Below, one piece after another: positions 4,047 through 53,169 of a stretch of DNA of 64,000 bases; the stretch's first letter is position 1; every line of letters starts with the position of its first letter. Under the pieces are notes generated by a model that did no database searches, was not told where the DNA came from, and worked only from the letters and a program-made list of their open reading frames with translations. A program made the translations under genes and the position numbers. The stretch is from Zingiber officinale (lineage: Eukaryota > Streptophyta > Magnoliopsida > Zingiberales > Zingiberaceae): contig NC_055996.1 of assembly GCF_018446385.1 (NCBI RefSeq), forward strand, positions 49,088,365 through 49,152,364. Direction: 5' to 3'.

Positions 4047-4438
4047 CTATAAAACTCTTAACATACATTCAGTCGAGTAAAGGCTGAATGGATATAAGGT
4101 TCTCTGTGATGGGCAAAGCCTGGACGGGCCCAGAGATACTTGACCTTCTATAGAGTTCTCAATACACATTCAGCCGGGTAAAAGCTGAACGAACATAAGG
4201 TTCTCTGTGAATACCTGGTCGGGAAAAGCCCGGGTGGACTGAGAGATACTTGACATTCTATAGAGTTATCAATACGTGTTTGGTTGGGTAAAGGCTGAAT
4301 GAACATAAGGGTCTCTGTGAACACCCAGTCGGGCAAAGAACGAATGGACCCAGAGATACTTGACTTTATATAGAGTTCTTAATACGTGTTTGGCCTGATA
4401 AAGGCTGAATGAACATAAGGTTCTTTGTAAATACCCAT
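4047..4438. repeat. Tandem array, about 3.6 units of 110 bp
   Basis: The phrase AGAGATACTTGA recurs at 4132, 4242 and 4352, giving a period of exactly 110 bp. The phrase TCTATAGAGTTCT...AATAC recurs with it, and a diverged first unit begins near 4047. Units also share GGCTGAATGAACATAAGG and a small GC inverted repeat of the form CGGGCAAAGCCCG. The array ends exactly where homology to the copia-B LTR begins. Confidence 0.9.
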
Positions 4439-6048
4439 TCCTAGTCAAGTATTAACATTCAGGGACAATGTTAATGCGACGAGACTAGCATGTAGGTCAA
4501 CTCGATGACTTGATCTCACAAGTCATGGATATGGAGATATCAAGTTGACACATGGGTATGCATTGGAGAATGTATACTGAATGACCCGCTATGAGAAAGT
4601 ATCATGGATCGTTATATGAGTATCATATACTTTCTCATGTGACTATTAGTATGACTACTAGTCCTTGGACATGAAGTCACCATGATTCCCTACATAAGGA
4701 GTTACGTACTTTGGCTTCGTCAAACGTCACCCGTAACTGAGTGGACTATAAAGGTGATTACTGGGTATGTAACAAATTATGCGGAGGGATGTGAGTAATG
4801 TAGACGGGATCTATCTCTCCTATATGACGGGAGTGACATCAATATTCTTGATAGAGTGAGACCACTAAGTGTATGGCCATGCCCAAATGAGTCAATATGA
4901 GATGTTGAGCTCATTTGATTGAGTGAGTCTACTTGGAGTTCAAGATTTAGATTTAATATAGGATGACACGGTCTATGCCTCATATTGATCAATCTAGGTG
5001 TCAAGAATAGAAGGACACTTGTCATATATTGTGAAGAGTCACAATTAGTAGTCACAAGGTGATGTTGGATCTCAACATTCTTATAACTTGGGTAGTAATG
5101 ATGTGTTGCTAGATACCGCTCATTACTTATGCTTCTAAATGGGTTTAGGAGCATTGCCAACGTTATAAGAACCTATAGGGTGACACACAAAGGGCAATTA
5201 GATGGAGATTAGGTTCATTTGATGAACCTAAAGGATTAGGTTTATGTGATGAACCAAATTGGATTAAGAGTAATCCAAATTAAGCTAATTGAGTTGGACT
5301 CAATTTGGTTTATGTGTTAAGTGAGTCTAATTTGGACTTAGACTCATTTAATTAATTTAATTCAATGAATAGAGATTCATTAAATTAAAATTGACTTGAA
5401 CCAATGGTTAGATTAGATCAACCAAGGGAGAGAAGTGGTCAAGTGTGACTTGACTTGAGAGGAAGATGAAGAGTCAAGTTTGACTTGACCATTTTCCACC
5501 TCATTGGTGAGTTGGCAAAGAGTGGACCAATGATGATGCTCCACATCATCATGGTTGCTTAAGTGGGATGCCACCTCATGGGAGTTACCAAGAGTTGTGA
5601 TTCTTGGTATCCCATGGAGTTAAAACTCCTTCATGAAGTGGCCGGCCACATTCATTCTTGTGTGGGAGTTTTCATTTTATGGAGTAACTCTCATCTTCTT
5701 CCTCTTTGCTCTCTTCTCTTCTCTCCCTCTCCTCCTCTTTGGCCAAGACTTCTTGGAGTGCTAGCACACTCAAGATTTTTTCTCCATCTCTTGCTTGTGT
5801 GGATACACATAGAGGAGTATCTACTTTGATACTCACGAGATCCGGCGAACCTTGGACGAGCGGGATTAAGCGAAGGGCTTCGCATCAAGGGTAAATTCTT
5901 ATCTTGTAGATCTAAAGTAGATCTAGGTTAGAAAACTCGTACGAGAATATTTTTACGAAATTTTATTTCTTCGCACGGATCCGTGGCATGGGAATTTCAG
6001 GGTTTTCGCAACGCAAAAAATGATTTTTGCGGCCTGAAAAACCCAACA
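4437..6048 (+). mobile_element. 5' LTR of copia-B B1, left end missing
   Basis: It matches the 3' LTR from about 10721 to 12330 and ends ACCCAACA immediately before the primer-binding site. Homology begins abruptly at CATTCCTAGTCAAG, next to the 110-bp array. A pyrimidine-rich stretch (about 5695-5745) lies toward its end. A GTGGCCGGCCAC palindrome stands near 5640-5651. Confidence 0.93.
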
Positions 6049-6049
6049 G

Positions 6050-6062
6050 TGGTATCAGAGCC
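6050..6062 (+). other. Primer-binding site, initiator tRNA-Met type (B1)
   Basis: TGGTATCAGAGCC starts two bases after the LTR end. It is complementary to the 3' end of plant initiator tRNA-Met and primes minus-strand DNA synthesis. Confidence 0.95.
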
Positions 6063-6876
6063 ACGTGCGAAGCGCGTATGAGTTTTATTTTGAATTTTAT
6101 GAAATTCTACAGATCTGTAAGTTTCTGTGTTTTTATGATTTTTATAGATTTTATGGGTAATTTTCTCGTAGAAGCGAAGCACAAGTGTTTAGACACTTGT
6201 AGGCTTCGATTACCGAGAAAATATTTCTGAAACAGCAAGGTTTCATCCCAAATTGTTTTGGGACAGCGGTTAAGGCACTGTAGGATCGCTTAGGAACACT
6301 CGCGATGGTTATATCGCGGGTAGGGGTACTGCCCCTAACCCCGCAAGGGGCTTCGTTCGGCGATTGCGCCCGAAAATCGCTAAACGGGACCGTCGGGAAT
6401 TTTTTCTCATAAAAATTATAAAAATTGTAAGAAAAATTACAGAAATTTATAGAAATTACATAATTTAGAATTATGTATTATTTTGTGATGGTCATGGCCC
6501 AAAAGACCCAATTTAATTGGATATTGTGTGTTGTAATTCATAATACGGCCTGCGCGTCGTCATGTGATTGTGCGTGTTGTATATTTGATACGCGACCTGC
6601 ACGTCGTGCCTTTCTATTTATTTATTCTTGTTGTAAATAGTTTAGACTCGAGGCGATGGAAGGTTCACTCGAGATGGAGTTACGAGAAGGGCGCGAGCAA
6701 CACAAAGTGGTCAAAAGAAGGACCTTGAGAAGCTGTTGACCTTAGGTTGACCATCCGATCTTCTCATTGGCTTGAGAAGATCGTAGTAGGGCCATGACTA
6801 ATCACAAAATATTTAATTAATTGCTTGTGTGTGTATATGTGATGCATGCTAGAATAGTAATTAATCAGCGCCTTAA

Positions 6877-6981
6877 CGATTAGATTAGATCTAAATCGCG
6901 TACATGATGCGCCCTCACGATTAGATTAGATCTAAATCGAGTATATGATACGCATCGTCGATTAGATTAGATCTCAATCGC
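6877..6981 (+). repeat. 41-bp tandem repeat in the copia-B leader
   Basis: CGATTAGATTAGATCTAAATCG-type units start at 6877, 6918 and 6959 (the last has TCTCAATCG), giving 2.6 copies with a period of 41. Each unit contains the palindrome TTAGATCTAA or a one-base variant. I did not find the array in the B2 leader. Confidence 0.9.
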
Positions 6982-7087
6982 GTCAACTCGAAATGCCTAC
7001 CATGCCATGATACCCATCACTACCTCGATCGCATGTTGTTGTTGAATCTGCCAAAGCAGAGCAACGCATACTATCTTGGTAGGGTGC

Positions 7088-7110
7088 GGAGGGACAATCT
7101 TGGTCCCTCC
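7088..7110 (+). other. Perfect 8-bp GC hairpin in the copia-B leader
   Basis: GGAGGGAC (7088-7095) pairs with GTCCCTCC (7103-7110) around a 7-nt loop. The matching place in B2 (about 51853-51880) has different bases but can still pair: GGAC with GTCC, and CAATAGT with ACTATTG. Confidence 0.7.
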
Positions 7111-7218
7111 TATCAATGCATGGGTGAGTACAACTCAATTTGATTGAGCAACTAGTTAACTCAATTGGATCGAGTTTAACTATAGGCATTTTCCATTGGT
7201 TGGTAGATAGGTCAAAAT

Positions 7219-7285
7219 CATGTTTATATTAACTCTTGGGCGTATTAGCCAAAGCTAACTCGAGTTTTAATATAAATGCGGATCT
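7219..7285 (+). other. Structured RNA candidate, leader hairpin 1 of copia-B B1
   Basis: The outer arms TTTATATTAA (7223-7232) and TTAATATAAA (7267-7276) are perfectly complementary, extended inward by CTC/GAG after a 2-nt bulge. Inside lies the conserved core CTTGGGC ... GCCAAAG, which forms 6 of 7 pairs around GTATTA, followed by CTAACTC. An alternative inner stem is TTAGC/GCTAA with a CAAA loop. The sequence GGATCTTG follows the stem. The same core recurs at 7341-7394, 51944-52017 and 52101-52155 with different but complementary arms. The role is unknown; genome packaging, dimerisation or translation are possible. Confidence 0.65.
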
Positions 7286-7340
7286 TGATCCTATAAACAA
7301 GAGTTGCATAGAGATGTAATTGATAATTAGTTACCTACCG

Positions 7341-7394
7341 ATCATACTAAGTCTTGGGCGATTTAGCCAAAGCTAACTCAGGGCATAGTATGAT
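7341..7394 (+). other. Structured RNA candidate, leader hairpin 2 of copia-B B1
   Basis: ATCATACTA (7341-7349) pairs perfectly with TAGTATGAT (7386-7394). The core CTTGGGC...TTAGCCAAAGCTAACTC is the same as in hairpin 1, but the stem sequence is different, as expected if pairing rather than sequence is kept. GGATCTTG follows, as in hairpin 1. Confidence 0.65.
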
Positions 7395-7451
7395 GTGGAT
7401 CTTGTCCTACATAAATTCTATAATTCAGTGGGAGCATCATTTAATTAAAGG

Positions 7452-10400
7452 CCTAATTAGATGATTATGTCAATGCCCGAGGTGGACCTACGCGTAGGCA
7501 ATGGAGCACGAGTTGCTGCTGTTGCTGTAGGAACTTATTCTCTATCTCTGCCCTCTGGGCTTGTACTAGAATTGGATGATTGTTGTTATGTGCCTTCATT
7601 GACTAAGAACATTATATCGGTTTCTTGTTTAGACAAGAAAGACTTTTCATTTATAATAAAGAACAAATGTATTCAGTTTATTTAAATGATATGTTCTATT
7701 GTAGTGCACCTCTAATGAACGGATTCTATATTCTAGACCTTGAAAACCCTATCTATAACATAAGTACCAAGTGGTTCAAGTCAAATGACATGAACCAAAC
7801 CTATCTCTGGCACTGTCGCTTAGGTCATATAAATGACAAACACTTATCCCAGCTCCATAAAGATGGTTTGCTGGACTCATTTGATTTTGAATCATATGAG
7901 ACATGTGAGTCATGCCTTCTAGGCAAGATGACCAAGACTCCCTTTAGTGGACACAGCGAGAGAGCGACTGACTTGTTAGAACTTATACATAGTGATATAT
8001 GTGGCCCTTTCAATGTACGCTGCCAGAGGTGGTTATAGGTACTTCATTACATTTACTGATGACTTCAGTAGATATGACTATGTGTATTTGATGACACATA
8101 AGTCAGAATCCTTTGAAAAGTTCAAAGAATTCAAGAATGAAGTACAAAACCAGCTTGGCAAGAGTATTAAGATATTTCAATCAGATCGAGGTGGTGAATA
8201 CCTTAGCCATGAGTTTTGTGACTATCTAGCTGAGTGTGGGATTCTATCTGAACTCACTCCTCTTGGAACACCACACTGGAATGGTGTATCTGAAAGGAGG
8301 AATCGTACCTTATTAGATATGGTACCGTCTATGATGAGTCACACAAATCTTCCCATGTATCTTTGGGGCTATGCTCTAGACACAGCAACCTTCATTCTCA
8401 ACCGAGTTCCATCTAAGGTTGTAATAAAGACACCATATAGGATATGGACTGGGAGAGATGCCCAGGTGTCTTTTATGAGGATTTGGGGTTGTGAGGCTTA
8501 CGTTCGACGTCAAGTCTCGGACAAACTGGGACCCAAATCCAACAAGTGCTATTTCATTGGATATCCCAAGGAAATGAAGCGATATTACTTCTACATTCCC
8601 AGTCAACACAAGGTAGTTGTGGCTAAGACTGGGGTATTTCTAGAAAGGGACTTTGTTTCTAGAAAGACTAGTGGGAGTACGTTCGATCTTGAAGAAGTTC
8701 AAGATGTGGACCATAGCACTAAAGCATCGATGGAAGTTGAACTAGAACCACAAAGTGTTGTGGATGATGTTGTTCCACAAGGAGTTGAGGAACCACAACT
8801 AGTTCAAGTAGACCTACCTCTTCGCAGATCTGATAGGGTACGTCATCAGCCTGAGAGATACTCATTTCTCTTGTCTGACCATGATGACGTTGTGCTCATT
8901 GAGGATGAGCCTACCTCCTATCAGGAAGCTATGATGAGACCAGATTCCGAGAAATGGCTAGAGGCCATGAGAACCGAGATGGAATCCATGTACACTAACC
9001 AAGTATGGACTTTGGTTGATCCACCTAAAGGGGTCAAACCCATTGGGTGTAAGTAGGTCTTTAAGAGAAAGACTGACATGGCAGGACTTATTTATAAGGG
9101 TCGCCTGGTAGCTAAAGGTTTCAAGCAAATTCATGGTATTGACTATGATGAAACCTTTTCTCCAGTAGCGATGTTTAAATCCATTCGGATCATGCTTGCT
9201 ATTGCAGCGTACCACGATTATGAGATCTGACAGATGGATGTCAAAACCACGTTTCTGAATGGAAACCTGCTCGAGGATGTGTACATGACACAACCTGAGG
9301 GTTTTTTCGATCCATAGCATACTGGCAGAGTATGCAAGCTGCATAGGTCCATTTATGGACTAAAGCAAGCTTCTTAGAGCTGGAATCTTCGATTCGATGA
9401 TGCAATCAAAAAGTTTGGTTTCATCAAGAATGAAGATGAACCTTGTGTCTACAAGAAGTTTGTAGGGAACACAGTTGTCTTCCTTATATTGTATGTGGAT
9501 GACATACTACTCATTGGGAAAGACATCCCTTTGCTGCAGTCTGTCAAGACTTGGCTAGGGACTTGTTTCTCAATGAAGGACTTAGGTGAAGCATCCCGCA
9601 TTCTTGGCATACAGATCTATAGAGATAGATCTAAGAGGTTGCTTGGCCTAAGTCAGAGTACATACATTGACAAGGTATTACTTCGGTTTGCCATGCAAAA
9701 CTCCAAGAAGGGATTTCTGCCGATGTCACATGGTGTGAGTCTTTCAAAGACTCAAGGTCCCTCTTCTAGAGAGGGGAGAGACCGCATGGATCAGATCCCT
9801 TATGCTTCAGCCATAGGATCTATCATGTACGTCATGCTATGTACTCATCCTGATATCTCATATGCTTTGAGCATGATGAGCATATACCAGTCAGATCCAG
9901 GTGAAAGTCACTGGATAGCAGTCAAGAATATTCTTAAGTACTTAAGAAGGACTAAAGAATATTTCTTGATATATAGAGACGATGACGAGCTAGCTGCAAA
10001 GGGTTACAATGATGCCAGCTTCCAGACCGACCAGGATGATTATCGATCGCAGTCAGGGTTAGTGTTTTGCATAAACGGTGGTGCTGTGAGCTGGAAGAGT
10101 TCGAAGCAGGACACAGTCGCTGATTCTACAATAGAGGCCGAGTATATTGCTGCATCAGAAGCAGCAAAGGAGGCAGTTTGGATCCGCAAGTTCATTACCG
10201 AGCTTGGGGTGGTTTCTAGCATAGCCGATCCCATAGAGCTCTATTGTGACAACAATGGAGCAATAGCACAAGCTAAGGAATCTCGCTCACACCAGCAGAC
10301 CAAACACATACTACGGCGCTTCCATCTCATTCGAGAGATTATCGAGAGAGGAGATGTGAAGATTTGCAGAGTACCCACAGAGGCTAACATCGCAGATCCC

Positions 10401-10495: not shown

Positions 10496-12330
10496 TGTTA
10501 GTTAGAGCCCTAGAGCCAATCATTTGATGATTGTTGTATGAGCTCATTGTATCATATTCTTATATATAAATAAAGGCATTTGTTTATGGTTATTATGCTT
10601 TCTTGTATTGGTGCCAAATAACTAAGTATAATAGCGTCCTTGAGTAGAAGGTTCTTACCTATATCAATTGGTTAGTTGAATCGATAATGAGATGATATAG
10701 GGAGCACTACTCTTAATCATTCCTAGTCAAGTATTAGCATTCAAGGACAATGTTAATGTGACGAGACAAGCATGTAGGTCAACTCGATGACTTGATCTCA
10801 CAAGTCATGGATATGGAGATATCAAGTTGACACATGGGTATGCATTGGAGAATGTATACTGAATGACCCGCTATGAGAAAGTATCATGGATCGTTATATG
10901 AGTGTCATATACTTTCTCATGTGGCTATTAGTATGACTACTAGTCCTTGGACATGATGTCACCATGGTTCCCTACATAAGGAGTTACGTACTTTGGCATC
11001 GTCAAACGTCACCCGTAACTGGGTGGACTATAAAGGCGATTACTGGGTATGTAACAAATTATGCGGAGAGATGTGAGTGATGTAAATGGGATCTATCCCT
11101 CCTATATGACGGGAGTGACATCGATATTCTTGATAGAGTGAGACCACTAAGTGCATGGCCATGCCCAAATGAGTCAATATGAAATGTTGAGCTCATTTGA
11201 TTGAGTGAGTCTACTTGGAGTTTAAGATTTAGATTGATTAGAGGATGACACGGTCTATGCCTCATATTGATCAATCTAGATGTCAAGAATAGAAGGACAC
11301 TTGTCATATATTGTGAAGAGTCAAAATTAGTAGTCACAAGGTGATGTTGGATCTCAACATTCTTATAACTTGGGTAGTAATGATATGTTGCTAGATACCG
11401 CTCATTACTAATGCTTCTAAATGGGTTTAGGAGCATTACCAACGTTATAAGAACCTATAGGGTGACACACAAAGGGCAATTAGATGGAGATTAGGTTCAT
11501 TTGATGAACCTAAAGGATTAGGTTCATGTGATGAACCAAATTAGATTAAGAGTAATCCAAATTGAGCTAATTTAGTTGGACTCAATTTGGTTCATGTGTT
11601 AAGTGAGTCTAATTTGGACTTAGACTCATTTAATTAATTTAATTTAATGAATAGAGATTCATTAAATTAAAATTAACTTGAACCAATGGTTAGATTAGAT
11701 CAACCAAGGGAGAGAAGTGATCAAGTTTGACTTGACTTGAGAGGAAGATGAAGAGTCAAGTTTGACTTGACCATTTGCCACCTCATTGGTGAGTTGGCAA
11801 AGAGTGGACCAATGATGATGCTCCACATCATCATAGTTGCTTAAGTGGGATGCCACCTCATGGGAGTTACCAAGAGTTGTGACTCTTGGTATCCCATGGA
11901 GTTAAAACTCCTCCATGAAGTGGCCGGCCACATTCATTCTTGTGTGGGAGTTTTCATTTTGTGGAGTAACTCTCATCTTCTTCCTCATTGCTCTCTTCTC
12001 TTCTCTCCCTCTCCTCCTCTTTGGCCGAGACTTCTTGGAGTGCTAGCACACTCAAGATTTCTTCTCTATCTCTTGCTTGTGTGGATACACATAGAGGAGT
12101 ATCTACTTTGATACTCTCGAGATCCGGCGAACCTTGGACGAGCGGGATTAAGCGAAGGGCTTCACATCAAGGGTAAATTCTTATCTTTTAGATCTAAAGT
12201 AGATCTAGGTTAGAAAACTCGTACGTGAAAGTTTTTACGAAATTTTATTTCTTTGCATGGATCCGTGGCATGGGAATTTCGAGGTTTCCGCAACGCAAAA
12301 AGCGATTTTTGCTGCCCAAAAAAGCCAACA
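10496..12330 (+). mobile_element. 3' LTR of copia-B B1, complete (1835 bp)
   Basis: It runs from TGTTAGTTAGAGCCC to AAAGCCAACA. A TATATATAAATA stretch lies about 65 bp from its start. It is the only full-length contiguous copia-B LTR in the window and was the reference for recognising the split B2 LTR (44529-44771 plus 49669-51124). The frames at 11059-11442 and 4777-5160 in the two LTRs are open in both copies on the antisense strand, but nothing suggests they are used. Confidence 0.93.
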
Positions 12331-21560: not shown

Positions 21561-23305
21561 ATGGCATGGAAAACTTCCTGGATCCTAAAGTTTTGGTGGA
21601 ATTTTGTCATAAGTAGAGAGCTGCAATTCTCTATTAATGTTACGGTCTCGAAGTCGCCCTTCTGCGGCCTGTTAGATAAAATATCCTTTAAGAACTTTAC
21701 GAACTTTAGCATTTGGTGCACTGCATCTATCAGTGGTACTTCTACGCAAATTTCCTTAATCTTCTTCAGGAATCAATTGAACTCTTCATCCTTTTGGAAG
21801 GTTATCAGTTTCTGAGGGAAAGGAATCGTCTGACTTTGTGGGGGAATTTGAAGAGTTCCATCAACTTTCTTAGTAACCTCCTCTCCATCCCTGTTCTAGG
21901 TATGATTGGGCATTAGGGGAGAGGGCTCTTCCTCTAAGTCAGGTCCCTTCTGAGTAATGATTTGGGGGTCTTCCACAGTTTGTCCTCTCCTCAGCTCGAT
22001 GCGGTTGCAGTGTTTCACTGGGTTTTATCTGGCTTCCCTGGAAATGTTCCCTGTGCTCTTGAGATAGACTGGGCTATCTGGGCTATCTAGCTGTCTTGCA
22101 TCTTTTGATGTTTCTCAGAATTTTCCATTCTTTGAGTTAACAGCTTGATCTCATTCTTCATATCTTTTTGCTCTGTAAGAGCTTCTTCAAGCATCATTTC
22201 AATTCTGGACAACTGTAAAGGTTGCTGTTGAAAAGTCTGTTGTCCAGATGAGTAGCCCTACTGCCCAGGTGAGTAGCTCTGTTGTCCAGATTGATAGCTT
22301 TACTTTGCTGGCCCTTGGTCCTGATTGTTCCGGTATGAGAAGTTTGGGAGATTCCTCTAACCTGGATTATATGTGTTGGAGTACGGATTATTTTGCCTTT
22401 GGTTGTAGCTGACTATCGCATCACACTACTCAAGTTGGTTTATCTGTGCTTGTATTGGCCCTAGGGGGCAAGTATCTTGAGCATGATCCATACTTCCGCA
22501 AGTTTCTCAAACACAAACTATCACATTGGCCGTGTTGTTGTTGTTTCCCATGGCCTCAAACTTCGTAGTCAGAGCGTCTAGCTTTGCAGACATGAGAGTG
22601 ACTACATCTACGCCAAATTTTCCTGACACTTTTATTGGATTCCCTGAGAAAGAACCACCAAATCTTTCTGATGCCCATTAATGGTGATTTTGTGCTACAT
22701 TCTCTATGATCTCTTTAGCTTCATCAAGGCTCTTGTTCATCAGTACTCCTCCTGCTATAGAATCGAGGGATACCTTTGTGTGATAGTTGATTCCATTGTT
22801 AAAGGTGTGTAGAACCAACCATTTCATGGCCATGATGGGGGCATTGTCTCAGCATACTTTTGAACCTGTCCCAGGCTTCAAATAATGATTCTGAGTCTAT
22901 TTGTTTGAAGCTTACAATCAGATTCCTCATATGAGTAGTTTTGCTTGGTGGATAGAATTTGTCCAAGAATTTCTGCTCACACTACTCCCAGGATGTAATG
23001 TTATTTGCTGGAAGTGAATTTAGCCACTGCTTGGCTCTGTTTTTCAGGGAGAATTCGAAGAGCAATAACCTTACTAATTCTGGAGGGACTCCATTCACTT
23101 TCATGGTACTACAGATCTCGTAGAAAAGCTCTAAGTGTTGGTTTGGATCATCGTGCGGTCCTCCTCTAAATTGATTCTGCTGAACCATGTGAATTACTGC
23201 AGGCTTGATTTCAAAATTGTTAGCTTCGATTGGCGGTCGAGTGATGCTAGACCGAACCCCTCGTGCATAAGGTACTGCGTAATCCTTCAACAATTTATCA
23301 GCCAT
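21561..23305 (-). pseudogene. Athila gag region
   Basis: The ATG at 23305 opens MADKLLKDYAVPY. Recognisable blocks follow: IEANNFEIKP, MVQQNQFRGGPHDDPNQHLE, ICSTMKVNGVP, LLLFEFSLKNRAKQWLNSLP. The frame is open to 22982 and then decays by stops and shifts. KFYPPSKT near 22950 and a later Gln-rich part (22240-22080, IAQIAQS) are still readable in other frames. This is the capsid protein gene of the element. No intact zinc knuckle was found. Confidence 0.85.
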
Positions 23306-26379: not shown

Positions 26380-27520
26380 ATTTTCGGCCAAGACAAGACT
26401 AAAAAGAAGGACCTAGGAAATGTAAAGACCTAAATTTTGACATGTTCAACATGTTTCTTGTAACATGTATCTTATGGTAGGGATTTATCTAATGTTCATA
26501 TGCTAGAATGTTTGGTTAGAACTTAGAGTCATACCCCTAAACACTCGGCCAAACATGAACAAAGGAAATAGGTAAGTTAAGACTCAAACCAAGCATGTTT
26601 CTTATTTTTGTTTATGATATGTGCCTCATGATGAGGAAGTTGTTAACATGATATGCTCATGCCTATATGATGATTAAACTTCATTCCATGCTCATATGTA
26701 TTCGGCCATGATAGGACTAGGGGCCTAGAAAAATTGTTAAACCTAAACTAATTATGCCATGATCCTCCTTAAGACAAGTTATGAAATTAATATGACATGC
26801 TCATGTTGTTCCTTAAAATAATTGCTATGAAATTCGTTTAGGGTTCTCATGCTTTTATGACACTTGAACCCTAGCTTTAAGTCTTACAAGTCTCGGCCAC
26901 AACATGTTTAAGGGCCTAGGAAACTTAGCACCTAACCTATTATGCTCATGTTGTTCCTTGAAATAATTGCTATGAAATTTGTTTAGGGTCTCATGCTTTT
27001 ATGACACTTGAACCCTAGATTCAAGCCTTACAAGTCTCGGCCACAACATGTTTAAGGGCCTAGGAAACTTAGAACCTAACCTAATTATGCTCATGATGTT
27101 CCTTGTAATAATTGCTATGAAATTGGTTTAGGGTTTCCATGATTTTAGGACACTTGAAACCTAGTTCCAAGCCTTAAGGGTTTCGGGCACAACAAGTTTA
27201 AGGGCCTAGGAAACTTGGAACCTAACCTAATTATGCTCATGATGTTCCTTGTAATATTTGCTACGAAATTGGTTTAGGGTTCACATGTTTGAATGATGAT
27301 TTTAACCCAATATAATGCTTGATAAGATTCGGCCATGATAAGTTTATAAGCTTAAGAAACCTAGAACCCTACCTAAACATGCTCATGATGTTTCCTTATG
27401 GTATATGATATGATATTGGTTTAGGGTTCACATGCTTGTATGTAGTTTTTTTTACCTAAATCCCAACTATAGGTTTCGGCCACTATATGGCATTAGGGTT
27501 AGAAATCTAAATATGATTCC
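26380..27520. repeat. About eight diverged units of 144-190 bp in the solo LTR
   Basis: The phrase CGGCCA followed by a short purine-rich text and a CCTAGGAAA-type phrase recurs near 26383, 26547, 26702, 26895, 27039, 27185, 27331 and 27475. Spacing is 144-146 bp in the second half and wider in the first. The phrases TATGCTCATG and GGTTTAGGGTT recur in phase. Confidence 0.8.
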
Positions 27521-48059: not shown

Positions 48060-48340
48060 GATATGGCTAAACGAGATGACTCTCGGCCCCATATCCGTCA
48101 AGGAACACTACATTCAAGTCACCTTATAAAAAAAAATTATTTTTTTTCCTCGCCTCAAATCTCAAAACCCATTGTTTTTTTTCAAACTAAAGTTATGAAA
48201 TAACTACTAAAACATCATAAGACATGATTGACAATTGAAATAATCATTCCATTTAAATCGGCTGCCGCTAGGAACCCAAAAACTCCTCTTGCTCAATTCT
48301 GCCCTGACAATACGCAGTTTGAGTGGTTTCATCGTAAAAT

Positions 48341-48880
48341 TCATAACTTATTCACTTCTAAGCCAAATCACTCCCTGTTTGAACTCACACGACCCTAGCT
48401 CGAAGGACTATCACCTTGACTTGATCCTAACCGTGCAGATCCAAGAAAACAGCATGTACTACTCAAACCAACTTACTGGTCGTGCATAGGCAGCAAACTG
48501 GCGCACACTCACCAAATAAATTCATAACTGACTCATTTGTAAGCCAAATCGACCTCTGTTTGAACCAACACGATCCTAACTTGAAGGACTATCACCTTGG
48601 CATGATCCTAACTGTGCATACCCAAGAAACAGAATGTACGACTCAAACCAACTTACTGGTCGTGCACAGGCAGCAAACCATCGCACACTCACCAAATAAA
48701 TTCATAACTAATTCATTTCTAAGTCAAACCGACCTCCGTTTGAACCCACACGATCCTAACTCGAATGAATATCACCTAGACTTTATCCTAACCGTGAAGA
48801 CCCTAAATAACAGCATGTACGACTCAAACCAACTTACTGATCGTGCACAGGCAGTAAACCAGCAATCCAACATATTTTTG
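48341..48880. repeat. Three 180-bp tandem units
   Basis: TCATAACT starts at 48341, 48522 and 48702 (periods 181 and 180). Units share GAACC-CACACGATCCTAAC, TATCACCT and ACTCAAACCAACTTACTG, with about 10-15% differences. Confidence 0.93.
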
Positions 48881-49668: not shown

Positions 49669-51124
49669 TAATATGCAAGGACAATATTAATGTGTTGAGA
49701 CTAGCATGTATGTCAACGGATGACTTAATCTTATAAGTCATGGATATGAGATATCAGGTTGACACATGAGTATATATTAAAGAATATATACTGAATGACC
49801 CACCATGAGAATATTTCATGGATCGTTATATCAGTGTCATAAACATTCTCATGTGACTATTAGTGTGAATAGTCCTTAGACCTAAAGTCACTACGGTTCC
49901 CTACATAAGGAGTTGTATACTTTGGTATCGACAAACGTCACCCGTAATAGGGTTAACCATAAAGTTGATTACTGGGTATGCAATAAGTTATGCGAAGAGA
50001 TATGAATGATATAGATAGGATCTATCTCTTCTATAAAATGTAAATGATATCTGTGGGCCCCTTGATTAGTAGGACACAAGAATGCATGACCATGCTTAAA
50101 TGAGTCAATATGCGATATTGAGCTTATTTGATCGAGTGTGTCTACTTAGAGATCAAGAAACACAAAGATTGATAAGAGGATAACACGGTCTATGCCTCAT
50201 TGATCAATCTAGATATCAAGGGTAGAAGGATTGAGTCATACAAGATAATAGCCACAAAAAGGTTAAGTCGGATCTCGACATTCTCGTCACTTGGGTAGCA
50301 ATGATGCCTTGCTAGATGCCACTAATTGCTTATGTATCAAAATGTTGATTTGGATATATTGTCAACGTTACGAGAACCTATTGGGTTACACACAAAGAAC
50401 AAGTCAATGGAGATGGATTCATATGATAGATCATTGGATTAAATCTAATTCAAATTAGACTCAATGAGTTAGACTCAATTGGATCCAACTATTGGATTGA
50501 GTCCAATTTGAATTAGACTCATTGATTCAATTGGATTGATGATTAATAAGTTGGACTCATTATGTGATTTCATGAATTTGAATTCATAAAGAAAGAGGAG
50601 TGTACAGCTTGAATTACTCATGCATTGGCTGCATTGGATGAAGAGTGAACAATTTGAATTGCTCATGCATTGGATTCATTGGATGAAGACAAATATTAAT
50701 GTCAATTAAGGTAATTGACATTAAGGCATGAGGAAATTTCATGAATCTATAAAAAGGGTTTTTTAGATTCATTTTATGATGAGTTTTTGGTGTTCTTGCT
50801 CTTCTTCCTCCTCCTCTCTTCCACTTGGCCGAAACTTCCAAGAAGGGTTGCTGGCACAACTTTTGGTTGTTTCATTCTCCACTTTGTGAGTTTGTGAGAC
50901 AAACGAGGCTTGTTCGTGTGGATACCATAGAGGCGCGACCACATGATTGCGCTAAGATTCGTATCTAAATAAATGTTGCTGTGAGGATTGCAAAGGGCAC
51001 ACAACAAAGGTATAACTCCCTCTCATGTAAATTTTAGTATATGGTTTCCTTTCGCATGAATCTTCTAGATTAACTGGATGTTTTCCGCTATGCTTTGGTG
51101 TGTTTAGTGCCCTAGTTCCTTATA
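49669..51124 (+). mobile_element. copia-B B2 5' LTR, right part
   Basis: Continues the LTR at TAATATGCAAGGACAATATTAATG, matching 4455-6048 and 10741-12330, and ends just before the primer-binding site. It is more diverged from B1 than the two B1 LTRs are from each other. Confidence 0.9.
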
Positions 51125-51125
51125 G

Positions 51126-51138
51126 TGGTATTAGAGCC
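51126..51138 (+). other. Primer-binding site of copia-B B2 (one base changed)
   Basis: TGGTATTAGAGCC; B1 has TGGTATCAGAGCC. Confidence 0.9.
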
Positions 51139-51943
51139 ACTTGCGAAGGCATATACTAAGTTGTAGTAGAATTTCATATGTGATATAGAAATTGTATGAC
51201 ATGTTTATTATGATTTGCATGGTTATGAGAAAGTTTCAGCCAAGAGGTTTTTAACGAGACCATCATGGCATTGCAGCCCATAATTAGTTGTTTAAATCAT
51301 AGTAAATTTTATGTCATAATAGATTGTGAATGTTATATGATATGATGCATGGTTATGACCCTTAAACCCCGATATGATTGGATGTGTGTGTTGTAATTCA
51401 TAATACGGTCTGCATGTCGTGCCTCTCCTCTTTCATTCTTGTTGTAAATTTGGACTACACTTGAATGTAACTCGAGTTTTCTTTAGATTTTGTATTGTAC
51501 AAATTAGAGAAGAATAAGTCTACTTGACGACAGTGAAAAGGGAGGAGGACAACAACACATGACGACCAAGGAAGCACTTGGAGAAGATGTTTTGACCTAG
51601 GCTAACCTTACAATCTTCTCATTGGCTTGAGAGGATCATAAAAAATGGGGCCATAACCATGTCACATTTATTTATGTATATATGTAATGTATGCCATGAT
51701 ATGCTATGATTGTATGCGATTCATGTGTTGTTTAATCATGATTAGGTATTTTAAACATGCCTACCAAAGTTTGGTACTCACTACTACCTCGATCATTTGT
51801 AGTCAGGTTTGCCAAAACAAAGTAACTTGTTTTATCTTAGTAGAGTGTGACAGGACAATAGTGATGTCCAACTATTGGACTTTGGGTGTGACTTAACTAA
51901 GTTACCTCAATTGGATTGAGAACTTAGAGGCATATCCCATACG

Positions 51944-52017
51944 ATGAAATTCAAATTATACTAGTCTTGGGCAATTAGCCAAAGCTAACTCAAGATGAGT
52001 TATAATGTAAATTTCAT
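51944..52017 (+). other. Structured RNA candidate, leader hairpin 1 of copia-B B2
   Basis: The same core as in B1 (CTTGGGC ... TTAGCCAAAGCTAACTC) is enclosed by a long stem. ATGAAATT ... ATTATA-CT on the left pairs with AG-TTATAAT ... AAATTTCAT on the right, with small bulges. The arms differ from the B1 stem (TTTATATTAA/TTAATATAAA). Confidence 0.65.
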
Positions 52018-52100
52018 AAGATGGGCAAATGAACAAATAGTCTTATTCACACAATGATACAAGTTACATATGATGTAATTAGTAAATGTTGCCTACCTAT

Positions 52101-52155
52101 GTTATATTAAGTCTTGGGCAATTAGCCAAAGCTAACTCAAGATACAGTATAATAT
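52101..52155 (+). other. Structured RNA candidate, leader hairpin 2 of copia-B B2
   Basis: ATATTA (52104-52109) pairs with TAATAT (52150-52155) around the same core. GGATCTTG follows, as after the B1 hairpins. This is the weakest stem of the four. Confidence 0.6.
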
Positions 52156-52337
52156 GGATCTTGTCTCACATGAATGTTATCACAATTGGATTTGGAGCTA
52201 GTAGTGTGGATAAAACCACATCCTTGACTTGCTCCTACCAAAGCTTTACAATTTAGTAGGAGAATCATTTAATTAAAGGCTTAGTTAAATGATCAAAATA
52301 TGATACTTATTTCTGTATTTTATTATTGTAGATCACT

Positions 52338-53169
52338 GTGTCGTCAAATACGTCAAATACTCTCTCTCTCTTTGCGTTCTATCCTTGATAAACACAAGCT
52401 CAATGGAGCTAACTTCCTGGACTAGTATAGAAACTTGAGAATAGTTCTCAAGCAAGAACGAAAATTGTATGTCCTAGAGCAGCCCATTCCTGAAGCACCC
52501 CCCATTACTGCCACTAGAGCTAATAAGGATGCTTATAAGAAGCATCAAGATGATGCATTAGATGTATCATGCCTTATGCTCACTACCATGAACTTCGAGC
52601 TTCAAAAGCAACATGAGAACATGGATTTTTATAATATGGTTGAACATCTTACACAACTATATCAAGGACAAGCAAGGCATGAGAGATTTGAGATCTCCAA
52701 GGCTCTATTTCAATGCAGAATGCAAGAAGGAAGTCTCGTAGGGCCTTATATGCTCAAAATGATCGAGTATGTGGAGAACCTACAAAGATTGAGATTTCCA
52801 CTAGGCCAAGAATTGGCCACTAACCTAATTTTGCAGTCATTGCCCGAAAGCTATAGTAAATTTATCATGAACTATAACATGAATGAAATTGACAAGCCAT
52901 TGCTTGAGATGTTGAGCATGTTGAGACCTGCTGAACTCAACCTTAAGAAGGCAAAGCCTAGCACCATTTTAATGGTACCAAAGGGAAAAGGCAAATGGAA
53001 GCCCAAAGGTAAGGGTAAGACCCAAGTCAAAGGCAAGGACAAAGCTCATGCATTGAAATCCAAAAGTGGGGTAGCTAAGGAAGGAATCTGCTTCCACTGT
53101 GGTGAAAACGAGCATTGGAAGCAGAACTGCAAGTTGTACCTAGAGGAAGTGAAAAAGGAAGAGAAGTGA
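52338..53169 (+). pseudogene. copia gag of copia-B B2 with zinc knuckle
   Basis: The N-terminus begins near 52338, where the sequence reads GTG TCG TCA. A (TC)n run near 52360 shifts the frame into SLRSILDKHKLNGANFLD, followed by a TAG at a Trp. From 52435 the frame is open to TGA at 53167-53169: RNLRIVLKQERKLYVLEQP, ALDVSCLMLTTMNFELQ, ARHERFEISKALF, ILQSLPESYSKFIMNYNMNE, a Lys-rich linker, and the CCHC knuckle CFHCGENEHWKQNC near 53089-53130. It is the capsid/nucleocapsid gene that B1 has lost. Confidence 0.93.

Follow-up and report, generated by a model that had tools for sequence, protein, structure and literature searches.

A hairpin array with shared CAAA tips in the leader of ginger Copia elements, selected for its fold and possibly acting in RNA packaging or dimerisation

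We analysed a window of 64,000 nucleotides of the Zingiber officinale genome. Two Ty1/copia LTR retrotransposons, B1 and B2, were recognised in it by their domain order and by a primer-binding site (PBS) directly 3' of the LTR. In B1, gag_pre-integrs, rve and SH3_retrovirus precede RVT_2, so that the integrase stands before the reverse transcriptase, which is the Copia order. The LTRs of the two elements are 74-77% identical over their alignable part, and by sequence B1 and B2 are assigned to two different subfamilies, I and II. The 3' LTR of B1 ends at 12330 and the LTR of B2 begins at about 49662. At a rate of 1.3e-8 substitutions per site per year, B1 would have inserted about 1.5 million years ago. 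B1 has no gag, since a deletion runs from just past the last leader hairpin (7460-7480) to near the protease region; the putative splice acceptor described below is also gone. The deletion junction had a single match in the genome at ≤3 mismatches, namely B1 itself, and is hence private to this copy. A gag-less parasite subfamily of the BARE2 kind was thereby ruled out for B1. For gag, the top identity with a named plant was to Curcuma longa (79% over 80%), and the best E-value was to Hibiscus sabdariffa; Gossypium and Trifolium also have relatives of this gag. The coordinates of all features are collected in Table 1.

Table 1. Features of B1 and B2 in the window. The ranks of splice sites rest on plant splice-site weights.
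Feature	Position	Strand	Basis
B1 5' LTR, subfamily I, minus about 220 bp at its start	4436..6048	+	96.1% identity over 1613 bp to 10718-12330
Putative splice donor GT in B1 U5 (CAAGG/GTAAAT)	5891..5892	+	second-best of 104 donors, 5600-7480
B1 primer-binding site TGGTATCAGAGCC	6050..6062	+	direct match
HP0 of B1, apical TCTGC-CAAA-GCAGA, closed by CTACC/GGTAG	7020..7082	+	fold; covariation in 46 distinct copies
Small hairpin GGAGGGAC-AATCTTG-GTCCCTCC	7088..7110	+	fold; by eye in many subfamily I leaders
HP1 of B1, core and long outer stem with the GGATCTTG motif	7207..7294	+	fold
HP2 of B1, 9-bp arms, 1x1 loop, middle stem, apical hairpin	7341..7394	+	fold; covarying arm pairs
HPt of B1, ATCATTTAATTA-AAGGCC-TAATTAGATGAT, 12-bp stem, palindromic GGCC loop	7436..7465	+	fold
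Putative splice donor GT in B2 U5 (ACAAAG/GTATAA)	51010..51011	+	second-best of 110 donors, 50770-52440
B2 primer-binding site TGGTATTAGAGCC	51126..51138	+	direct match
HP0 of B2, decayed, MFE favours another fold	51784..51843	+	alignment; fold
HP1 of B2, outer stem CCCAT..ATGAAATT/AATTTCAT..ATGGG	51936..52025	+	fold
HP2 of B2, last hairpin	52097..52157	+	fold
HPt of B2, loop AAGGCT	52264..52293	+	fold
Putative splice acceptor AG before gag of B2 (TTTTATTATTGTAG/ATC)	52330..52331	+	best of 92 acceptors, 50770-52440
B2 gag reading frame, start codon not intact	52426..53166	+	PF14223, E 2.3e-13

Both 5' LTRs start at a nearly equal point, about 220 and 230 bp from the start of a complete LTR as judged from the starts of local alignments, and both are devoid of the TG end and of the TATAAATAAAGG box. 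A fuller copy, L151, has both, with a TGTTAG start at L151:314. Two possible TATA boxes were seen in the LTRs, TATAAAAAGGG at 50748 in B2 and TATAAATAAAGGC at 10565 in the 3' LTR of B1, and recall the two-promoter LTR of BARE. Elsewhere in the window lie a plant C/D box snoRNA, snoR71 (22827-22898; Rfam RF00097, 41.2 bits for a gathering score of 40), and tandem arrays of about 146, 180 and 110 bp (26848-27429, 48337-48859 and 4111-4440).

The leaders of B1 and B2, between the PBS and gag, each contain two copies of a hairpin core, CTTGGGC followed after 2-3 nt by TTAGCCAAAGCTAACTC. The exact cores start at 7235 and 7353 in B1 and at 51966 and 52113 in B2, the places at which a first-pass annotation of this DNA had reported them, and no other full-core match at ≤5 edits was found on either strand in the rest of the 64-kb window. 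That annotation had also described complementary arms that differ between the sites, and they were found as written, all four sites folding alike in RNAfold. The shared architecture consists of an arm stem, a small internal loop, a middle stem of the TCTTGGG/CTCAAGA type and an apical TTAGC-CAAA-GCTAA hairpin. The core, formerly described as a single block, is thus itself made of two stems, middle and apical. While the arms had been correctly placed, these inner two stems had been missed and the first hairpin (HP1) reaches further out in both elements than had been drawn. Its outer stem has unrelated sequences in B1 and B2. The GGATCTTG motif was indeed present downstream of three of the four hairpins (7280, 7397, 52156), with the first B2 hairpin as the exception. 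At least 16 enclosing pairs were predicted by RNAfold for 39 of 41 first hairpins in subfamily I and all 28 in subfamily II, for 20 of 46 and 11 of 27 last hairpins, respectively, and for all nine middle hairpins. The best 100-nt windows over the hairpins had fold z values of -2.7 to -4.2 against dinucleotide shuffles, and other parts of the B1 leader fold equally or more strongly (z -4.1 to -4.7), so that fold stability alone is no argument.

Two further stretches of the B1 leader, 6110-6269 and 6290-6389, are strongly folded (z down to -4.7 and -4.3) and have no clear counterpart in the B2 profile. The hexamer ATCTTG occurs four times in the B1 leader (7073, 7097, 7282 and 7399), including the loop of the small hairpin and the GGATCTTG motifs after HP1 and HP2, and once in that of B2 (52158). 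Kissing of ATCTTG loops with the CAAA tips was considered and dropped, being judged too weak. A switch pairing the TCTTGGG strand with the downstream GGATCTTG was likewise dropped on inspection; subfamily I hairpins, for example those of B1, do not have the CAAGAT that it needs. A peptide-coding leader was rejected on visual inspection, since B2 does not share the reading frame that starts at the ATGs of HP2.

Other hairpins accompany these two. HP0 lies about 200 nt 5' of the HP1 core and is tipped by TCTGC-CAAA-GCAGA in subfamily I and TTTGC-CAAA-GCAAA in subfamily II. A GC-CAAA-GC tip is thus common to HP0, HP1 and HP2, on differing stems. In the window, GCCAAAGC was found five times on the + strand, always within the B1 and B2 leaders, and once on the - strand. 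Directly 5' of gag stands HPt, with a 12-bp stem and a six-base loop. It was matched at ≤4 edits in 61 distinct leaders, 42 of which have GGCC in the loop; seven loci gave no match, and in six of them the examined stretch may stop too early. Changes in the HPt stem are mostly one-sided, to G.U. HPt is a stable hairpin with a self-complementary loop, as looked for in a dimer initiation site, the loop of B2 itself reading GGCT.

We then looked at the copies of the core in the whole genome. The exact core had 16,602 matches in 3.09 Gb (reversed control, 0), some of which may be two alleles of a single insertion if the assembly is haplotype-resolved; PMC8342452 describes a haplotype-resolved ginger assembly of 3.1 Gb. 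Among the first 30 core loci, which cover 26 distinct regions, 29 had fragments of gag or of the protease region downstream as judged by eye, L024 being the exception. A core form with a two-base spacer, belonging to subfamily II, was present in 1,081 copies. Outside this genome, a 17-mer of the core had no match in prokaryote contigs and nine in IMG/VR, none with the remaining core and taken as chance; peptide patterns of the B1 reverse transcriptase piece had no match in IMG/VR. Elements carry one to three recognisable core hairpins, with three in 5 of 102 sources, as in the subfamily II locus L106 (G000:C2:74222809-74223672; spacings 149 and 89). The spacing is 116-119 in subfamily I, mainly 118, whereas subfamily II has chiefly spacings of 147-149 plus 87-90. 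The identity of the cores and their spacing lead us to infer tandem duplication of hairpins, and the four sites in the window probably descend in this way from one ancestral hairpin.

The first-pass annotation had read changed arms that still pair as the mark of a selected RNA structure, and had proposed to look for compensatory change in many copies. Since covariation cannot be proved from four sites, wider samples were used: 108, later 181, distinct HP1/HP2 units and 46, later 82, distinct HP0 units. For the null, the observed changes of each column were placed at random on the tree in 3000 simulations. In the 108 HP1/HP2 units, 2206 cells held standard pairs against 2011±73 under the null (reached in 3 of 3000 simulations), and 85 cells were changed on both sides against 20±15 (8 of 3000). 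In the 46 HP0 units, 663 of 690 cells were paired against 537±37 and 53 were double-sided against 9±7, neither being reached in 3000 simulations. With the second sample added, 1180 of 1228 HP0 cells were paired over 82 copies. Compensation therefore exceeds the tree-aware null, in one genome. The strongest HP1/HP2 pair, 17-67, is T-A in some units and C-G in others, with changes back and forth (p=0.0003). Some double-sided cell was present at 6 of the 15 pairs of HP0 and 8 of the 23 of HP1/HP2, and by this measure only six pairs pass 0.05 uncorrected (17-67 and 21-63 in HP1/HP2; 23-50, 26-47, 27-46 and 32-43 in HP0). The covariation is based on few independent events. Columns that flank the loops pair poorly (25-60 in 37 of 107), and the middle stem barely varies. 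When arms were swapped among 11 arm lineages, of which six comprised one or two units, the cognate energy was equalled in 68 of 20,000 permutations.

Changes on internal branches (shared) were mostly passed on by replicating elements, and those on terminal branches (private) mostly arose after insertion. With pair 31-54 excluded from the second sample and from the pool, since the second loci were chosen for change there, pairing was kept in the pooled stems in 30 of 45 shared changes versus 41 of 107 private ones (p=0.0012). Slid controls, in which partners were shifted by 1-3 columns, gave p values of 0.20-0.99. In the first sample, from whose alignment L020_3of3 was excluded as spurious, the stems kept pairing in 23 of 29 shared versus 30 of 71 private changes (p=0.00065) when four loop-flanking pairs were left out, a choice made after seeing the covariation result; over all pairs the counts were 28 of 42 versus 34 of 79 (p=0.011). 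The second sample, from 40 other loci, gave 18 of 27 versus 23 of 55 for stems (p=0.030) and 24 of 35 versus 26 of 66 for all pairs (p=0.0047). In it, HP0 alone reached p=0.033 (36 picks kept, 22 dropped as HP1/HP2 copies, and 3 of the 40 loci giving none), and the HP1/HP2 stems alone were not significant (8 of 14 versus 13 of 30, p=0.30). These tests use parsimony over short alignments of which the tested columns are themselves a part, pool HP1 and HP2 as paralogues, take loci in contig order and cover one genome. Altogether, covariation beyond the null, the contrast between shared and private changes, the flat slid controls and the agreeing second sample indicate that the structure of HP0, HP1 and HP2 is selected in replicating elements. 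We hold this with high confidence, and the selected RNA structure that the first-pass annotation had read from the arms is borne out by it.

Could the paired arms have arisen with no selection at the RNA level? Inverted repeats might come from template switching or duplication, or the dyads might be a DNA element such as enhancer dyads or a cruciform, and we consider all this very improbable. The first-pass annotation had itself named a shared inverted-repeat duplication as a possible undoing of its reading. That idea stands insofar as HP1 and HP2 do look like tandem duplicates at the spacings given above, and in one lineage, L028, the HP1 arms are wholly new and near-perfect, as a single template switch could produce. 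The Drosophila copia leader reportedly contains a DNA enhancer, which would suit a DNA element. Against all these readings stand the pairs of HP0, which change singly and at scattered positions, and the contrast of shared and private changes at true pairs, absent at slid ones. Neither internal loops nor wobbles should survive template switching, yet the internal loops persist and 107 of 108 units have the G.T wobble 32-53. G.U, moreover, was scored as a pair and is meaningless in duplex DNA.

Variants of single stem positions were also followed over the genome. At apical pair 2, the 5' base is not T in 194 places, and 77 of the 100 listed, on C1 to C9, carry a compensated C-G (count by eye); the other 23 listed are uncompensated (15 C without partner, 4 A and 4 G). 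The flanks of the C-G copies are near-identical, and for this reason they look like one young lineage and thus a single event, yet an amplified one. G5 of the middle stem varies in 537 places, with C kept in 97 of 100 listed, A-T in one and A in two, and apical pair 3 in 120 places, the old partner being retained in all 100 listed. These uncompensated variants look like dead-copy decay. One may then ask whether the structure mattered only in an ancestor and is drifting now. Copies do decay freely, 66 of 107 private changes breaking pairs, but the lineage with the compensated change was amplified over C1-C9 and moved recently, since a number of its copies show no difference around the leader, so that a mere relic has very little probability in our eyes.

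What the selected structure does is a matter of graded likelihood. The array is structured and lies between the PBS and gag, where a retroelement packaging signal is expected. The first-pass annotation had offered packaging, dimerisation or translation control as an inference, and such it remains; we favour packaging or dimerisation because of the position between PBS and gag, the repeated identical tips and the hairpin with a mostly palindromic loop. This is our first choice for the array, at an even chance or slightly below. The domain would comprise HP0, HP1 and HP2, joined in some subfamily II elements by a third core hairpin, followed by HPt directly before gag, and would act in cis on the full-length genomic RNA. 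Gag or a partner may recognise the repeated CAAA-capped hairpins, and two RNAs may make their first contact at the GGCC loop of HPt. Retroviral nucleocapsids often favour unpaired G, and by this analogy the CAAA tip, with no unpaired G, would count against packaging. The decay of B2's own HP0 would also count against packaging or dimerisation.

A second feature of the leader bears on these readings. Upstream of the PBS, a donor-like GT in U5 (AAG/GTATAA-like or GG/GTAA-like) was seen by eye in all 13 visible rows, from 12 distinct loci. At the other end, a T-rich tract ending in TTGTAG sits a few bases 5' of the gag ATG. A script found the TAG acceptor in 52 of 61 leaders, three rows having a wrong AG (TTGTAG by eye) and six none, and the acceptor form TTGTAGATNNNCATGNCNNCNAA occurs in 11,475 copies genome-wide (control, 0). 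The conserved U5 GT and the T-rich TAG before gag suggest that the whole leader is a putative intron. Copies of the spliced junction, searched for in the genome in the subfamily I form, numbered zero, which fits an RNA that has no PBS and is uncopyable and fits absence of splicing equally. ATGs number 32 in the putative intron of B1 (5893-7466) and 54 in that of B2 (51012-52330), against 0 and 2 in the putative first exons (5690-5892 and 50785-51011), whose starts are guessed. Plain scanning to gag is therefore implausible on unspliced RNA, and plant pararetroviruses shunt past leader hairpins. The array might thus control translation, by a shunt or internal entry past the long AUG-rich leader. 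Since splicing would remove the same ATG problem, and since HP2 of subfamily I has ATGs in its 3' arm, we regard this role as improbable.

The hairpins might instead steer the processing of full-length RNA, dampening leader splicing or aiding nuclear exit of unspliced RNA, and not be the packaging signal itself. The putative acceptor is some tens of nt 3' of the end of HPt and about 150-250 nt 3' of the last core hairpin. A 2025 review (PMC12786077) reports that in mouse structured elements (RTE, MTE) serve the export of unspliced LTR-element RNA, and that the structured CaMV leader recruits export factors. On the other side, HP0 is several hundred nt from either putative splice site, and such control presupposes splicing, itself only putative here; we judge it rather unlikely.

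To return to packaging and dimerisation, the putative intron would give the domain a place in the life of the element. The leader would be spliced out between the U5 donor and the acceptor before gag, leaving a translated mRNA without primer site and hairpins, and unspliced RNA would retain both and be packaged. That the leader in its full length, starting in U5 and stopping just short of gag, is an intron holding the PBS, the CAAA-tipped packaging hairpins and the GGCC dimer hairpin, spliced RNA serving translation and unspliced RNA packaging and copying, is put forward as a tentative and somewhat doubtful model. It would be unusual, because plant LTR elements generally have no introns, with Ogre and EVADE as exceptions, according to the 2025 review (PMC12786077). 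As for the explanation as a whole, a selected leader domain that acts in packaging or dimerisation in a spliceable leader, we see it as evenly poised between right and wrong.

In our judgement, very little is known of the cis signals that let plant LTR elements pick out their genomic RNA. With thousands of copies in one genome, shared changes can be separated from decay after insertion, which makes selection testable per base pair without an experiment. If the intron reading is true, it would explain simply how a single transcript can be used for translation as well as for replication.

No match to either leader was found in Rfam at the gathering score, three matches far below gathering scores appearing when E up to 1 was allowed, and no description of these hairpins was found in open-licence PMC full text. 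This agrees with the earlier remark that no description of them was known. The array thus appears undescribed, as fits these searches, while its general kind, the structured 5' packaging or dimerisation region of Copia elements, is known. Gammaretroviral packaging hairpins stand in tandem between primer site and gag and have identical tetraloops. The tandem hairpins with one tip found here resemble them in arrangement and differ in tip and lineage, the packaging role here being putative. Ty1 is a Copia-superfamily element. Its RNA has a structured 5' domain (TIPIRT) with paired hairpins, likened here by description: the first 326 nt contain a pseudoknot and a pair of hairpins whose 7-nt loops are complementary, and kissing of hairpins is proposed to start dimerisation and packaging (PMC5454406). 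Unlike Ty1, the ginger leader has repeated hairpins with one CAAA tip and a separate GGCC-loop hairpin, all 5' of gag. BARE1 and BARE2 are plant Copia elements with an untranslated leader; PMC3735527 reports that dimerisation and packaging signals are conserved in BARE2 and that translation and replication of BARE use different RNAs. Together, PMC5454406 and PMC3735527 show that Copia 5' regions can carry such signals and that a plant Copia separates its RNA pools. In BARE, however, the pools are separated by promoter and 104 nt are spliced out within gag (PMC3735527), whereas the putative intron here is the whole leader. EVADE and Ogre are likewise plant LTR elements whose introns yield subgenomic RNAs (PMC12786077), but there the introns are placed within coding parts or between them (EVADE, PMC12786077; Ogre, PMC3735527). 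Finally, Sireviruses share with the ginger elements conserved palindromic motifs in non-coding Copia DNA; these comprise LTR boxes and PPT repeats together with an inverted repeat where the PPT meets the 3' LTR (PMC2829016) and, unlike the array described here, are not leader hairpins with covariation.
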